A stretch of DNA of 64,000 nucleotides from the NCBI RefSeq assembly GCF_003399625.1, contig NZ_NBXA01000022.1, positions 186,001 through 250,000 on the forward strand, read 5' to 3'. Below the pieces are notes generated by a model that did no database searches, was not told where the DNA came from, and was given only the letters and a program-made list of their open reading frames with translations. Source of the DNA: Subtercola boreus. Its GTDB lineage: Bacteria; Actinomycetota; Actinomycetes; Actinomycetales; Microbacteriaceae. Position numbers and translations under genes: made by a program. This document shows, one piece after another, positions 1,605 through 49,108 of this stretch (positions are counted from its first letter, which is position 1; the number at the start of each line of letters is the position of its first letter).

Positions 1605-1904
1605 CTAGCCGAGCGCCTCTTCGAGCCGGTCGAGTTTCGAAGTCAGCTCACCAGAGTAGCCAGGCCGAATGTCGGCCTTCAGCACAAGAGACACGCGCGA
1701 CCCGTACTCTCCGACCGCCTCGGTCGCCCGGCGAATGACGTCGAACACTTCCGCCCACTCTCCCTCGATCGTCGTAAACATCGAGTCGGTGTGGTTCGGG
1801 AGCCCGCTCTCGCGAACGATACGCACTGCGGCAGCGACGGCGTCGTGGACTGACCCGTCGGCGCGGCCGTCGCCGCTCGGCGCCACTGAAAATGCAACTA
1901 GCAT
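1605..1904 (-). CDS. Thiamine-binding protein family (MTH1187/YkoF-like, DUF77), complete copy
   Basis: A 99-residue protein of the MTH1187/YkoF-like family, ferredoxin-like proteins that bind thiamine or related ligands and usually multimerise. Length matches the family. Diagnostic stretches are [11 protein letters not shown] at the N-terminus, [17 protein letters not shown] in the middle and the [13 protein letters not shown] strand. The ATG at 1904 has GGAG six nt upstream. The first 48 residues are about 85% identical (41 of 48) to the truncated copy immediately upstream, whose stop codon overlaps this start by 7 nt, so this copy is probably translated by coupling. Its codon use is AT-richer (for example CTA, GTT, TCA) than the truncated copy, suggesting a different origin. 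Confidence 0.85.
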
Positions 1905-2080
1905 GCCATTCTCCAATGTCCTTCTTCTGCTAACGTGCCCTCGATCGTGGTGAACATCGAGTCGGTGTGGTTCGGCAGGCCCGATTCCCGCACCACGCGC
2001 ACGGCGGCCGCGACCGCATCGTGAACGGAGGCTTCGGGGCCCTCACCGCCCGAGGGAGCGACAGAGAATGCGACGAGCAT
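1898..2080 (-). pseudogene. Truncated 5' copy of the DUF77 thiamine-binding gene
   Basis: Sixty codons, of which the first 48 match the family and the downstream complete copy (41/48 residues). After the IEG motif the frame runs into unrelated sequence ([12 protein letters not shown]) and stops at 1898. The start overlaps the stop of the GT87 gene by one base (TGATG), and codon use is GC-rich like the right-hand neighbours, so this looks like the resident gene. The break at about 1936 marks the junction with the AT-richer segment. The fragment lacks the second half of the ferredoxin-like fold and is probably not functional by itself. Confidence 0.75.
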
Positions 2081-3408
2081 CAGGTGACCACCTTCACAGC
2101 GACAGGAGCGGAGACCGGCGCGCTCTTCTTCACGCGGGTCGTGACGAGCGCACGCACCGCGAGAACGAACAGAACGCAGACGAGGAGGTTCCGCACCGTC
2201 AGGGTGACGAGCATGAACGTGTTCAGTGAGATCAGCCAGTCGTAGTAGTACGGGTAGATGACCTGCGTCAGCAGGGCGAGCACGGCCGCGATGATCGCAA
2301 AGGTGCGGAACCGCTTGCCCTGCCAGATGATCCCCAGGATGACCGGGGCCGTCAGCCACAGCATGAACTGCGGGGAACCGACCTTGTTGAACACGATCAG
2401 CGCCGTCACCAGGGCCAGGGTGAGCGGCGGCAGCACCTCGGTCACCCGGGCACCCGAGCGCACCACCCAGACCCCGATCAACAGCAGGGCCAGCACCGCG
2501 AGCGCAAGGAGCGGCGTGGTCAGCACGTCGGCGATGGGGCCGCCCGCTCCCTTCACCTGGAACGTCAGGATGTCCTGGTCGTAGTAGACGACCGACCCGG
2601 GCAGCTTCAGGTAGGCACCCCACATGAACGGGGTGCTGATCGGTGCCTCGATCTGCAAGCCACGACCGGTCTGCTGGGTGACGAAGCTGATCAGGTTGGC
2701 GCCGGCACCGAGCGCCAGTCCCACGCCCGCGATGACGGCAGCGGTCACCGCTGCGGCGATGGCGACGCTCCAGCGCTTCTTCGCGGCGATCATGACCGCG
2801 ACGACCATGGCGATCGGCCAGACCTTCACCCAGGTGGCGGCGGCGAGCAGCGCCCCGGCGACGGCGGGGCGGCGGATGGCCAGCAGGAGCCCCACGATGA
2901 CGAGCGCCACCTCGAAGGTGTCGATGCGCCCGAGCGCGACAGGACCGAGCAGCAGCAGGGCCGCGAGCCACCACCAGGCGGCCACGAAACGGATGTTCGG
3001 GCCGAAGCCGGTCGGGCGGGCATCCGGTGCCGGCATGTGGTCGGGCCGGGTAGCCCGGTCGGGCGACCCCTCCCCAGCGGGCGCGACACGGGTCGCACGG
3101 GAGTTCAGGATGAACGCCAACACGGCCCCGTTCGCGAGCACCACCAGCACGAGCCAGGTGATGCCGTAGAGCGTCTTTCCGAACGCCGCCGCCGCGATCA
3201 TGGGTGCCAGGGCGAGGAGCGGATAGACCCACGGGCCGTCGATGCCGATCCAATATCCTTCGAACCCGTTCTGGATCCACGTGTTGTAGACCACAGTCAC
3301 ATCCCCCCAGGGCAGGGTCGGAGCCGTGAGGCCGACGTATCCGAGCCAGAGATGGATGGCGACGAAGACGGGCCAGATCAGCAGGGGGTTCGTAGCCAGT
3401 CGACGCAC
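2080..3408 (-). CDS. GT87-family polyprenol-phosphate-dependent mannosyltransferase (DUF2029)
   Basis: A 442-residue integral membrane protein with about ten to twelve hydrophobic segments and short loops. The first extracytoplasmic loop has [16 protein letters not shown], with the acidic residue typical of GT-C enzymes, and a later region has [11 protein letters not shown] and AATWVKVWP, features of the GT87/DUF2029 family. Such enzymes use lipid-linked mannose to extend cell-envelope glycans (PimE-like). The length fits. The GTG start follows the nnrD stop by 4 nt, and its own stop overlaps the next start, so nnrD, this gene and DUF77 are a likely operon. The exact acceptor cannot be told from sequence. 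Confidence 0.75.
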
Positions 3409-4295: not shown

Positions 4296-4353
4296 GCCGC
4301 GCCCCGTGCGCCACCTCCATGCCCGCCGCGCCCCGTGTGCCACCTCCATGCCC
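4296..4353. repeat. Two tandem copies of a 29-bp repeat
   Basis: Units at 4296-4324 and 4325-4353 differ at one position (GTGCGCC versus GTGTGCC). They lie between the divergent nnrD and Old Yellow Enzyme genes, 40 nt upstream of the latter's start. No similar unit was seen elsewhere. It may be a simple slippage duplication. Confidence 0.8.
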
Positions 4354-4394
4354 GCCCCGGAATATCTCGTTCGCCCGCTCGCTTCTACTCCCAC

Positions 4395-5480
4395 GTGACC
4401 TCCGCAACGCTCTTCAGCCCCCTGACCATCCGCGCGACAGAGTTCCGCAACAGACTGTGGGTCGCGCCTATGTGCCAGTACTCGGCCGAGAAGCAGGACG
4501 GCGTGCCGACCGACTGGCATCTCGCGCACCTCGGCTCGTTCGCAAGTGGCGGCGTCGGACTCATCATCACCGAGGCCACCGCGGTCACCCCCGAGGGGCG
4601 GATCTCCCTGCAGGATCTCGGGCTCTACACCGATGAGCAGCAGCAGGCGTTCGCCCGCATCAACACCCTGCTGCACGCCCAGGGCACCGCCACGGGCATC
4701 CAGCTCGCCCATGCCGGACGGAAGGCCTCGGTCTTCCGGCCCTGGGCCGACACGAAGGGCACCGTTCCCCTCGCGGAAGGCGGCTGGTCGACCGTCGCAC
4801 CGTCGGCTGTCGCCTTCCCGGGGTACGACGTGCCCGCAGAGCTCACCGTCGACGAGATCGCGCAGCTCGTCGAGGACTTCCGCGCCGCCGCCCGCCGCTC
4901 CGTCGACGCCGGCTTCGACGTGATCGAACTCCACGCTGCCCACGGGTACCTGATGCACCAGTTCCTCTCGCCGCTCAGCAACGAGCGCACCGACTCCTAC
5001 GGCGGGAGCCTGGAGAACCGGGCCCGTTTCGTGCTCGAGGTGGTCGCGGCCGTCCGGGCCGAGATCGGCGAGCTGATGCCGCTCTTCGTGCGCTTCTCGG
5101 GAACGGACTGGGCCGCCAGCGGTGGCTGGGACATCCAGCAGACCGTCACCGTCGCCGGCTGGGCGAAGGATGCCGGGGCCGACCTCTTCGACGTCTCGAG
5201 CGGCGGCAACGTGACCGGTGTGACGATCCCGGCCGCCCCGCTCTACCAGGTGGAGCTCGCCGAGACGCTGCGAACGGAGGCCGGCGTGCCGGTGAGCGCC
5301 GTCGGCCTCATCACGACGGCAGCCGAGGCAGCGGAGGTGGTGGCCTCCGGACGCGCCGACGCGGTGATGATGGCGCGGCAGTTCCTGCGCGATCCCCACT
5401 TCGCGCTCCGCGCCGCCCACGAACTCGGCGTCACCCTCGACTACTGGCCTCCCCAGTACACCCGCGCTGCCTTCCGCTAG
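4395..5480 (+). CDS. Old Yellow Enzyme, YqjM-like NADH:flavin oxidoreductase
   Basis: A 361-residue FMN-dependent ene-reductase of the thermophilic-like (YqjM) class, reducing activated C=C bonds with NAD(P)H. Evidence: APMCQYS with the redox-tuning Cys27, AHAGRKAS (105-112), the substrate-binding pair H180/H183 with Y185 in ELHAAHGYLMHQFLSP, and SYGGSLENR. Length is typical. The GTG at 4395 is chosen because the family motif begins directly after it. An ATG 60 nt upstream would add unrelated sequence overlapping a tandem repeat. No Shine-Dalgarno is evident. Natural substrate unknown. Confidence 0.9.
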   Translation: MTSATLFSPLTIRATEFRNRLWVAPMCQYSAEKQDGVPTDWHLAHLGSFASGGVGLIITEATAVTPEGRISLQDLGLYTDEQQQAFARINTLLHAQGTATGIQLAHAGRKASVFRPWADTKGTVPLAEGGWSTVAPSAVAFPGYDVPAELTVDEIAQLVEDFRAAARRSVDAGFDVIELHAAHGYLMHQFLSPLSNERTDSYGGSLENRARFVLEVVAAVRAEIGELMPLFVRFSGTDWAASGGWDIQQTVTVAGWAKDAGADLFDVSSGGNVTGVTIPAAPLYQVELAETLRTEAGVPVSAVGLITTAAEAAEVVASGRADAVMMARQFLRDPHFALRAAHELGVTLDYWPPQYTRAAFR

Positions 5481-5583
5481 CCCCCCCCCTCTCCCTCCCC
5501 TCCCCCTTCTCGCTCCCCGCCATCGACTCGGTAGTTTCTGTCGCTCCAGCGCTGTCTCACCGACAAGAACTCCCGAGTCGATG
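5480..5583. repeat. Composite hairpin element A1 (C-rich tract plus inverted repeat)
   Basis: A C-rich tract (5480-5520) is followed by an inverted repeat with 23-nt arms at 5521-5543 and 5561-5583 (20 of 23 positions pair, 17-nt loop). The arm core CATCGACTCGG.AGTT is shared with elements at 6609-6669 and 49012-49072. The right arm encodes the last eight residues and stop of the DUF559 gene, which is read on the opposite strand. There is no U-tract, so it is not a standard terminator. Confidence 0.7.
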
Positions 5584-6531
5584 TGGGTTCGGCGGCCGCC
5601 ACCCGGCGGCTGTGAGGGCGGTGCGCACATCGCAGAGCGTGACGGGGGCCTCCGAGCGGAGGCCCTCTATCCGCACGCGCTGAACGGTCTCGCCCGCTTC
5701 GATGAGTCGGGCGATCCGACGTTGATCCTCGGCGTAGATCTCACGATTGAATCGATGCTGCTCTCCGTCGTATTCGACGATGAGTCGGAACTCGGGATAG
5801 TAGAGGTCGGCACGACCGGCGAACCCCCCGCTCGGAGTGCGAATGTCGACGTTGACCTCGGGCTCCGGTAGTCCGTCTCGGATCAGGAGAAGACGCAGCG
5901 CGGTCTCCATCGGCGATTCGACGCCTTCCCGTACGAGGTCGAGCGCGGCCGCAAGACGGCGCTTCCCCCGGCCCCGGAACTCGTTCACGCGCACCCGGAG
6001 TCCATCGAGGTCGGCGAAGGGCCGAGCATCACCTCTCTTCGGATACCGCGGGCGGAATACCGCTGCATCACCCATTGCGATCAGTTCATCGAGGCCCGCT
6101 ACGCTTCCGAGCTGGATCCACGCGGACACCGCGTCGCAGACCGGAAGCCCGTCGAGTGTCGTAACGTCGGGCGGCCTTCCACCGACAACGTGACCGCTCA
6201 CCCCCCGGGCATCCGGAGGCCACCCGTTTCCGACTGAAACAGCGACATCCACCGCAGCCAGGCCGGAACGCCGCTCGTACGCAGGCAAGCCCCACAGCAG
6301 TGCAGCCGTGCGATGACTGAAATACTGACCGGGACGCAGCCGAGGAGCGTAGGCCTCGCACCGGCTCCGGATGTTCGAAGGGCGGTTCTCGAGTGAGACG
6401 CGCACCCCGCGAAACGGCGCCACAAGGTCTGATCGACGCAGCCGGTTATCGTCGATACCCCGACGGAGGGCATCAGACCGGCTGAAGGCGGCATTCCGGA
6501 ACGCGGGTGGCAGGTCGGTCGGTCGTCGCAT
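5557..6531 (-). CDS. AbiEi-like N-terminus plus DUF559 PD-(D/E)XK nuclease-like protein
   Basis: A 324-residue protein. Residues 10-60 resemble the winged-helix domain of AbiEi-type antitoxins (LRRGIDDNRLRRSDLVAPFRG). The C-terminal part is a DUF559 (Vsr-like) restriction-endonuclease fold, with ESPMET (205-210), GRADLYYPE (D242) and LIVEYDGEQH (250-259) giving an E...D...E-x-D-type metal site. Such genes are widespread in actinobacteria, with no established role. It is monocistronic. The 3' end lies inside hairpin element A1, and element A2 lies just upstream of the start, so the gene is bracketed by related inverted repeats. The ATG at 6531 is favoured over a codon 54 nt upstream because the conserved region starts there. 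A part in DNA repair, defence or mobilisation of the hairpins is inference. Confidence 0.8.
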   Translation of the reverse strand: MRRPTDLPPAFRNAAFSRSDALRRGIDDNRLRRSDLVAPFRGVRVSLENRPSNIRSRCEAYAPRLRPGQYFSHRTAALLWGLPAYERRSGLAAVDVAVSVGNGWPPDARGVSGHVVGGRPPDVTTLDGLPVCDAVSAWIQLGSVAGLDELIAMGDAAVFRPRYPKRGDARPFADLDGLRVRVNEFRGRGKRRLAAALDLVREGVESPMETALRLLLIRDGLPEPEVNVDIRTPSGGFAGRADLYYPEFRLIVEYDGEQHRFNREIYAEDQRRIARLIEAGETVQRVRIEGLRSEAPVTLCDVRTALTAAGWRPPNPHRLGSSCR

Positions 6532-6608
6532 ACCGCCAGTCTCGCCGCATCGGGGGCTCCGCCTGACGTTGTCCACAGGCCGCAAGAGCTTTCCACAGGC
6601 CGATAACG

Positions 6609-6711
6609 ATCGGCTAGGCAGTTGTGGTCGGAATTGGGAATGCGTACCGACCGAAACTCCCGACTCGATGAGACGGTGGGTGGGTGGGGGTGGGTGGGGG
6701 GCGGGGCGGGG
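6609..6711. repeat. Composite hairpin element A2 (inverted repeat plus G-rich tract)
   Basis: Arms at 6609-6631 and 6647-6669 (about 16 of 23 positions pair, 15-nt loop), with right-arm core ACTCCCGACTCGAT, the family-A motif. It is followed at 6676-6711 by a run of G3-G6 blocks separated by single bases, a clear G-quadruplex-forming pattern on the + strand, reaching to the stop codon of the CNNM gene. It is the mirror image of element A1: C-tract, hairpin, DUF559 gene, hairpin, G-tract. Confidence 0.65.
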
Positions 6712-7749
6712 TCAGATGCGGCGGGTCGCGTCCTGCACCTCGCCGACGAGCTCCTCGATCACGTCTTCGAGGAAGAGCACGCCGGTGGTGTCGCCCGAGG
6801 CGCTGAACGCGCGCGCGACGTGGGCGCCGGTGCGGCGCATGGTCGCGAGGGCGTCCTCCAGTTCGGTGCCGTCGTAGATCGACGCGAGTAAACGGATCCG
6901 CTTCGCGGGCACTGGCTGCTCGAACTCGTCGTCATCGAGGTCGATCACGTCTTTCAGGTGCAGGTAGCCGATCGGGTTCCCCGTGGCATCCACCATCACA
7001 TAGCGCGAGAAACCGTACTTCGAGACAGCGCGCTCGATGTCGGCCGGGGTCGCGGTGCGGTCGAGTGTGATCAGGCGGGCGACAGGAAGCGCCACCGACG
7101 CCACCGTCTTCTCGGTGAACTCGAACGCCGCGTGGAGGGCGCCCGAATTGTCGTCGAGCACACCCTCGCGGGTCGACTGCGCCACGATGCTCGACACCTC
7201 TTCGAGCGTGAACGAACTGGCCGCCTCGCTTTTCGGCTCGACCCCGAACAGCCGCACCACACCGTTCGCCGTGGCATTCAGCGACACGATCACGAAGCGG
7301 AAGATGCGCGCCACCCAGACGAGCGGCGGGGCGAGCAGCAGCACGGCCCGGTCGGGCACCGAGAACGACAGGTTCTTCGGCACCATCTCGCCGATCACGA
7401 CATGAAGGAACGACACCAGCACCAGGGTGATGACGAATGCCACCCCCGTGATGAGGTCTTCCGACCAGCCGGTGAGCCCGAGCGGCACTTCCAGCAGGTG
7501 GTGGATGGCCGGTTCCGACACATTCAGGATGAGCAGTGACGCGACGGTGATGCCGAGCTGGCTCGTGGCGAGCATGAGCGTCGCGTGCTCCATCGCCCAC
7601 AGCGCGGTCTTCGCGCGCTGCATGCCCGCCTCGGCGAGCGGCTCGATCTGGGAGCGGCGTGCAGAGATGACCGCGAACTCGGCCGCCACGAAGAAGGCGT
7701 TGACGAGCAGCAGCACGAAGAGCCAGACGATCCCGATCCAGTCGGCCAT
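6712..7749 (-). CDS. CNNM-family membrane protein with CBS domains (shorter partner, pair 1)
   Basis: A 345-residue CNNM/CorC-type (DUF21) protein. It has four hydrophobic segments in the first 150 residues with family motifs FFVAAEFAVISARRSQIE and GEMVPKNLSFS, then a CBS pair (about 200-340) ending in LFLEDVIEELVGEV. The C-terminal CorC/HlyC domain is absent. The family is implicated in Mg2+/Co2+ or Na+ transport. Its start overlaps the stop of the longer partner by one base (TGATG), so the two are coupled. A paralogous pair of the same order lies at 21817-24160. A heteromeric complex is inferred from the pairing. Confidence 0.88.
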   Translation of the reverse strand: MADWIGIVWLFVLLLVNAFFVAAEFAVISARRSQIEPLAEAGMQRAKTALWAMEHATLMLATSQLGITVASLLILNVSEPAIHHLLEVPLGLTGWSEDLITGVAFVITLVLVSFLHVVIGEMVPKNLSFSVPDRAVLLLAPPLVWVARIFRFVIVSLNATANGVVRLFGVEPKSEAASSFTLEEVSSIVAQSTREGVLDDNSGALHAAFEFTEKTVASVALPVARLITLDRTATPADIERAVSKYGFSRYVMVDATGNPIGYLHLKDVIDLDDDEFEQPVPAKRIRLLASIYDGTELEDALATMRRTGAHVARAFSASGDTTGVLFLEDVIEELVGEVQDATRRI

Positions 7750-49011: not shown

Positions 49012-49108
49012 ATCGAGTGGGCAGTTCGGGCCCTGAAGTCCACGTGCGAAGGGCCCAAACTGCCCACTCGATTGATATGGCGGGGTGGATGGGCGGGGGT
49101 GGGCGGGT
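49012..49108. repeat. Composite hairpin element A3 (inverted repeat plus G-rich tract)
   Basis: Arms at 49012-49033 and 49051-49072 pair at 21 of 22 positions (core ATCGAGTGGGCAGTT), with a 17-nt loop, the same loop length as element A1. A G-rich tract with G3-G5 blocks follows at 49079-49107. It lies between converging DedA and CDF genes and reaches almost to the CDF stop. The core matches elements A1 and A2 near the DUF559 gene. Confidence 0.75.

Follow-up and report, generated by a model that had tools for sequence, protein, structure and literature searches.

In a 64,000-nt stretch of the Subtercola boreus genome (contig NZ_NBXA01000022.1, positions 186,001 to 250,000; hereafter the window), a gene for a predicted Vsr-type nuclease has a hairpin on either side, the two belonging to one family, as an earlier reading of the sequence had claimed (the original prediction). 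Our comparison of related loci confirms this observation and shows that it is more general than the window alone reveals. Related genes are bracketed by hairpins whose arms are specific to each gene, copies of such hairpins are dispersed through the genome, and individual copies are present or absent at orthologous sites. We consider it probable (roughly 60%) that this pairing of repeat and nuclease works like the systems formed by repetitive extragenic palindromic (REP) sequences and REP-associated tyrosine transposases (RAYTs), built on an unrelated enzyme that may recognize, cut and mobilize the hairpins. The bracketed unit consists of three features:

5557..6531, minus strand: gene bracketed by type A hairpins, predicted to encode a 324-aa Vsr-type, DUF559/REase_MTES_1575-like nuclease
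5521..5583: type A hairpin at the 3ʹ end of the gene, with arms at 5521-5543 and 5561-5583 and a 17-nt loop, overlapping the last codons
6608..6670: degenerate type A hairpin, 76 nt upstream of the start codon

The arms of the hairpin at 5521-5583 match at 20 of 23 positions, and its fold as single-strand DNA (-16.4 kcal/mol, z -4.8) was equalled by 0 of 200 shuffled sequences. This hairpin does supply the last codons of the gene, as had been proposed. The upstream hairpin has arms matched at 16/23 positions, with 23/200 shuffles as good; it falls below the threshold of our detector (score >=12) and would not stand out alone, and its z of -1.3 makes it recognizable by family likeness only. There is a family member on both sides of the gene, but one arm of the degenerate upstream copy, ATCGGCTAGGCAGTTG, has 3 mismatches to the arm core that had been described. 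The 4.12 Mb genome as a whole (G000) contains 92 matches to the arm core at up to 2 mismatches, compared with 3 for a reversed control, and many of these matches form opposite-strand pairs with starts 44-45 nt apart. Hence, the window hairpins are not a product of chance.

Two types can be told apart among the arm matches in this genome, type A (ATCGACTCGGGAGTT...) and, in larger numbers, type B (ATCGAGTGGGCAGTT...). A paralog of the window gene (C3:94854-95810, 46% identical) is bracketed by type B hairpins, one upstream and one 13 nt past the stop codon. With type A at the window gene and type B at the paralog, paralog and hairpin type go together within one genome. Type B is also represented in the window:

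49012..49072: solo type B hairpin, z -8.0, the window copy of the type that brackets the paralog elsewhere in the genome

Type B elements have sharp ends and are constrained in their arms and not in their loops. Of the 35 distinct elements, 29 measure 60 bp and 6 measure 61 bp; the arms of ~22 nt are strongly conserved, the loop is of near-fixed length with no conserved sequence, and conservation ends at the foot. Copies of the D/E type in G000, G009 and G001 (L312-L314) align over ~62 nt, with flanks that are not alignable. We did not use compensatory arm changes as evidence (both arms changed at 23 positions, against an expectation of 4.5), because the set of 41 in question contained type A as well as type B. 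In 524 kb of G000, made up of stretches partly picked for holding hairpins and annotated with a crude gene caller, 26 of 28 type A or B hairpins lie outside called open reading frames (ORFs). They occupy 12 convergent, 15 tandem and 0 divergent junctions, with 1 hairpin not placeable; all junctions in these stretches number 72, 245 and 65, respectively.

Two loci of G000 have A-type and D/E-type hairpins adjacent to each other, roughly 20-120 nt apart (L311, 273-503, contig C26; L312, 333-473, contig C2), an arrangement that resembles the composite elements of REP systems. At one orthologous site, G000 has type A (C22:84144) and G001 has type D. We do not claim a conversion there, since the adjacency at L311 and L312 makes loss of one of two hairpins as likely. 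The third DUF559 gene of the genome, L001 (C7:278649-278894), has an inverted repeat with 28-nt arms nearby, and no matched second hairpin was listed for it.

Bracketing was assessed in two sets of homologous loci, with the same detector threshold and with segments >700 bp away in the same loci as controls. The first set comprises 71 loci (L002, 30 returned loci and 40 fetched ones), other matches, mostly partial or weaker, having been left out. The second comprises 71 named loci, these being the best 80 of at least 539 relatives minus 9 that repeat the first set, from Subtercola, Herbiconiux, Cryobacterium, Curtobacterium, Rathayibacter, Agromyces, Leifsonia and other genera. A hairpin was found in 46/70 of the 5ʹ flanks and 53/70 of the 3ʹ flanks in the first set (controls 6/148 and 5/207), and in 51/64 and 44/69, respectively, in the second (controls 7/190 and 9/272). 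For unrelated Old Yellow Enzyme (OYE) genes, the numbers were 1/27 (5ʹ) and 8/25 (3ʹ), counted after three occupied junctions and loci without enough flank had been dropped. No hairpin at all was detected for 10/71 genes of the first set and 9/71 of the second.

The two hairpins of a gene resemble each other. Hairpins lie on both sides of 38 of the 71 first-set genes, and an arm sequence is common to the pair in 36 of these 38, compared with 33 of 1406 cross-gene combinations, many of which are between loci carrying type B or a TTGCGCAAAAGCACC type. In the second set, arms are shared by 30/33 same-gene pairs and 30/1056 cross pairs. The 36 arm-sharing genes have a consistent geometry, with medians of 73 nt upstream of the start codon and 2 nt from the stop codon. 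Together, these observations support the original link between gene and hairpin and the comparison with REP/RAYT systems. A TTGCGCA(A/G)AAGCACC-type hairpin is common to L045, L048, L070, L078 and L097 (from G008, G002, G010, G006 and G005, all of the same genus), so that type B is not the one palindrome conserved from genome to genome.

Of 20 loci retrieved from outside the order, 15 were analysed (five gave no ORF, and the ORF taken for L309, one of the 15, was the wrong one). Hairpins were found 5ʹ of the gene in 5/15 and 3ʹ in 2/15 (controls 3/59). L292, L296 and L302 have a 5ʹ hairpin only, L293 has a short 3ʹ one, and L297 alone has a matched pair; its genome (G140) contains 24 arms of the L297 type, 4 of them at the gene, versus 2 control matches. 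Bracketing is therefore seen in one part of the DUF559/MTES_1575 family and not in the other members tested, and the proposal that hairpins accompany DUF559 genes in relatives holds to that extent.

We also counted hairpin arms, including those at the gene, in 60 genomes. Type B arms number 86 in G000, 90 in G001, 23 in G009 and 14 in G011; among the remaining 56 genomes, a single arm occurs in each of two, and the others lack type B arms. All four multi-copy genomes have a gene with 65-92% identity to a type B gene (that of G000, G001 or G009). Among the loci studied, the relative that comes next (60-62%, in G005) carries a hairpin of another kind. Arms of the G040 type number 24 in G040, 5 in its congener G058, where they lie on both sides of the homolog, and at most 1 in the 58 others. 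Types B and G040, at least, are multi-copy only where the cognate gene occurs. Type D arms number 23 in G001, 7 in G011 and 4 each in G000 and G009. Homologs of the window protein are present in 42/60 genomes, its own included, and the hairpins are sparse, with about 7 to 45 copies per genome. The Y1 transposase domain of RAYTs (PF01797) was detected in 0/12 genomes of the genus and 3/60 overall.

The history of the loci can be read from close relatives. G000, G001 and G009 have a gene at the window locus, which is empty in the congeners G002, G004, G005, G006, G007, G008 and G010; contig ends make it unreadable in G003 and G011. Between G000 and G009, the neighbouring enzyme is 94% identical and the proteins of the type B genes, which have the same hairpin, are 92% identical; the proteins of the window locus, which have different hairpins, are 53% identical. 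The type B gene has a dN (nonsynonymous divergence) of 0.04 and a dS (synonymous divergence) of 0.25 between these genomes, and is thus under purifying selection. Across homologs, 70% of the pairs at 60-80% protein identity (20 pairs) have hairpins in common, compared with 0.2% of those at 35-40% (890 pairs). The region in which protein identity best follows hairpin similarity is the middle one, about residues 80-190 of the type B protein.

Individual type B hairpins vary between species. Those at C22:118738 and C22:235012 (window position 49012) are present in G000 and absent in G001, and the latter is absent also in G009, which has other sequence there; the compared stretch of G009 covers two of the sites. 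The hairpin at C22:160016 is in G000 and G001 and absent in G009, those at C22:113983 and C22:130836 are in both G000 and G001, and a hairpin of G001 (C1:767403) is absent in G000 and G009. The gap in G009 opposite window position 49012 (L164, C29:71376-71495) holds a tandem repeat of ~60 nt instead.

The protein itself appears from its sequence to be a divergent DUF559/MTES_1575 Vsr-type nuclease. It has weak Pfam matches to DUF559 (18.4 bits, E 0.002; the curated cut-off is 20.6) and to PvuRts1I-like_N, and no match to PF01797, the Y1/HUH transposase family. At E<=0.01, DUF559 is found in 43/64 homologs and REase_MTES_1575 in 53/64. Residues E209, D242, H259 and D269 are invariant in 64/64 homologs, and E253 is conserved in 90% or more; we take the invariant residues to be catalytic, by analogy with the family. 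Profile matches in the PDB were 3hrl (E 4.7e-5) and, weakly, the mobile-intron protein 3r3p (E 0.026), presumably I-Bth0305I. The N-terminal 200 residues have 0 Pfam matches, and our guess is that they might bind DNA.

The gene sits amid two convergent genes:

4335-5480, plus strand: Oxidored_FMN (OYE-type) gene
6712-7749, minus strand: CNNM/CBS protein gene

A C-tract after the stop of the first and a G-tract before the stop of the second had been assigned to the element. Both tracts are present, so that C-rich sequence follows the stop codons of both neighbours (window 5481-5511 and 6677-6711), but their membership of the element is unsupported and they are probably features of the neighbours' C-rich 3ʹ ends. 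At convergent junctions, the first 40 nt past the stop codon have a C-skew of 0.29 at the 20 gene ends with a hairpin and of 0.13 at the 72 that have none, and a partial link between tracts and hairpins may therefore exist. One could guess at a Rho-type termination signal. An Rfam search of the region gave one sub-threshold match and nothing relevant. Elsewhere in the window, the ORFs at 1605-1916 and 1898-3280 have a near-identical stretch in common, apparently from a partial tandem duplication of a small gene.

How might such a pair operate? We propose that each member gene encodes a Vsr-type nuclease and carries its own cognate palindrome ~70 nt upstream and at or near the stop codon, with additional intergenic copies, which in type B measure 60-61 bp. 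The arms are conserved and a fixed distance apart and the loops vary freely, which suggests that two half-sites are recognized, most likely either as an extruded hairpin (cruciform) or as a dimer site on duplex DNA. The invariant residues of the nuclease domain suggest that the enzyme would then nick or cut at the palindrome, after which host repair would copy or rewrite palindromes at new or old intergenic sites. The gene would stay in place, kept by selection, and would perhaps be autoregulated by its bracketing hairpins.

Several observations weigh against a REP/RAYT-like mode of action. At our threshold, 33/71 homologs of the first set, the window gene included, lack a hairpin on at least one side (two of these 33 have no sequence on one side), as do 38/71 of the second set; hairpins also occur at the 3ʹ ends of the control OYE genes. 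Similarity of protein and of hairpin are only weakly correlated across 66 genes (rho 0.13; 4/2000 permutations as high). Types A, D and E also occur without a strict link to a bracketed gene. There are 25 type A arms in G000, 24 in G009 and 14 in G001, and the locus genes of G009 and G001 carry other hairpins; type E arms number 24 in G009, 22 in G000 and 2 in G001, and the window-locus genes carry differing types. The expected tie between hairpin density and gene is thus seen for types B and G040 and not for types A and E, which are about as frequent in a relative with another hairpin. One possible reading is that the spread of types A and E reflects older populations that have outlived a change of the locus gene. 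Comparison of occupied and empty sites, as the original prediction had advised, did find both states between species, but none of the empty sites amounts to a clean insertion or excision, and at C22:160016, loss in G009 fits as well as gain. Finally, PD-(D/E)XK-type hydrolases are not known to have strand-transfer chemistry like that of HUH enzymes, which leaves the copying step unexplained.

An alternative explanation is that the palindromes are operator or terminator sites, and that the protein acts chiefly in regulation, binding DNA to control its own gene as well as genes close to dispersed sites, with no role for its nuclease domain in the spread of these sites. The 5ʹ hairpins are indeed at a promoter-like distance (median 73 nt), the 3ʹ ones are near the stop codon, and the fixed spacing of the arms fits a dimer site. 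Furthermore, the junctions of the 27 placeable solo or bracketing hairpins (12 convergent, 15 tandem, 0 divergent) are those expected of terminators. However, plain terminators do not need gene-specific sequence, the nuclease domain has the same E209, D242, H259 and D269 in every one of the 64 homologs, and copies in unrelated flanks that are present in one species and absent in another resemble mobile repeats. We regard this explanation as unlikely.

It is considerably less probable that the unit is an autonomous transposon, with the hairpins as its ends, the nuclease as its transposase, and solo hairpins as remnants like miniature inverted-repeat transposable elements (MITEs). Matched repeats do bracket the gene, and matched solo repeats are found elsewhere; it was this symmetry that had suggested a transposable unit. 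Nonetheless, paralogs within one genome are at most 68.9% identical (71 loci), the gene occupies a single conserved position in three species, and each hairpin is a complete palindrome; the unit does not look like a proliferating transposon. Copy number and fixed position disfavour any transposon with terminal repeats. Homologs are also rare in phage and plasmid records, with one partial match among the former and four matches among the latter, each <60% identical; viral contigs gave at least 8 short C-terminal matches. A phage or plasmid origin was set aside on these numbers.

We consider it just as improbable that the nuclease serves in defence or quality control, cutting DNA depending on the state of its palindromes or on their absence; the palindromes would be self marks or decoys, and the enzyme would co-evolve with them for that reason. 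MTES_1575-named domains are described as Vsr-type restriction endonucleases (REases) in a conflict-system protein, in the part of PMC3710099 that concerns them, residues 241-288 of the window protein weakly match a PADLOC model for a methyl-directed restriction enzyme (E 4.8e-5, 20.8 bits), and the window locus diverges rapidly. However, four neighbouring window proteins match no PADLOC family at E<=0.01, and the hairpins are sparse. That these are ordinary intergenic terminator hairpins, near the gene by chance, is scarcely credible: hairpins are found at 8/25 control gene 3ʹ ends, but this explains neither the gene-specific arms across both flanks (36/38 and 30/33) nor the multi-copy dispersal.

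There is a bolder proposal, which we hold tentatively and at slightly under even odds. Actinobacteria may have evolved, independently of RAYTs, a second class of repeat-spreading system, in which a Vsr-type nuclease recognizes its own palindrome (as hairpin or cruciform) and both spreads and rewrites it genome-wide by cut-and-repair, and protein and palindrome switch specificity together. In the papers covered, REP repeats with a known partner gene pair with HUH transposases. The layout of a bracketed gene with dispersed palindromes would then have arisen more than once and could run on hydrolytic chemistry, many uncharacterised DUF559/MTES_1575 proteins would gain a predicted substrate readable from the flanking DNA, and the protein-palindrome pairs would be a ready-made specificity series for biochemistry. 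The open-access literature in PMC, to which our search was confined (subscription papers and other preprints were outside its scope), contained no report of a hairpin-nuclease association that we could find.

Several known systems share features with the one described here. The weak 3r3p match (E 0.026) and the conserved E, D, H and D, which we read as the EDxHD motif, are shared with EDxHD homing endonucleases; unlike in those, no intron was seen around the window gene, and the partner is a dispersed palindrome. Insertion sequences and MITEs would be expected to show near-identical copies of the gene-bearing unit, and copies within one genome, among the 71 loci, do not exceed 68.9% identity. 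The type of C-terminal domain and its conserved residues are those of DUF559/REase_MTES_1575 Vsr-like endonucleases, but only L297 of the 15 members from outside the order has a matched hairpin pair, and the founder, MTES_1575, is a large multidomain protein as portrayed in that part of PMC3710099. CGTC-tagged REPs are likewise palindromic repeats without association to a transposase gene, and the relevant section of PMC3733652 names no nuclease partner for them. They are defined by the CGTC tag, however, which is not enriched here (5/66 hairpin sets; shuffles mean 8.1).

The closest likeness is to the REPtrons formed by REPs and RAYT/TnpA-REP proteins. As in the accounts of RAYTs on which we draw (sections of PMC2817692 and PMC8266576), a nuclease gene is bracketed by two copies of its cognate palindrome (36/38 and 30/33), palindromes specific to the gene are scattered over intergenic DNA, orthologs stay at the same position and evolve more quickly than neighbouring genes, and repeats and protein change together. 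According to the same section of PMC8266576, TnpA-REP processes single-stranded cognate REPs. There are also differences. The partner here is a predicted Vsr-type nuclease and not a Y1/HUH transposase; type B elements are 60-61 bp long with 22-nt arms, whereas REPs are given as 20-40 bp in the section of PMC3733652 that describes them; and copy number is about 7-45. The foot motif is CGAG, found in 32/66 hairpin sets (shuffles mean 8.4, maximum 16), and not the GTAG of REPs (1/66; shuffles mean 5.2). With the same layout and the defining enzyme absent (PF01797 in 0/12 genomes of the genus), the pair would work like a REPtron without being one.

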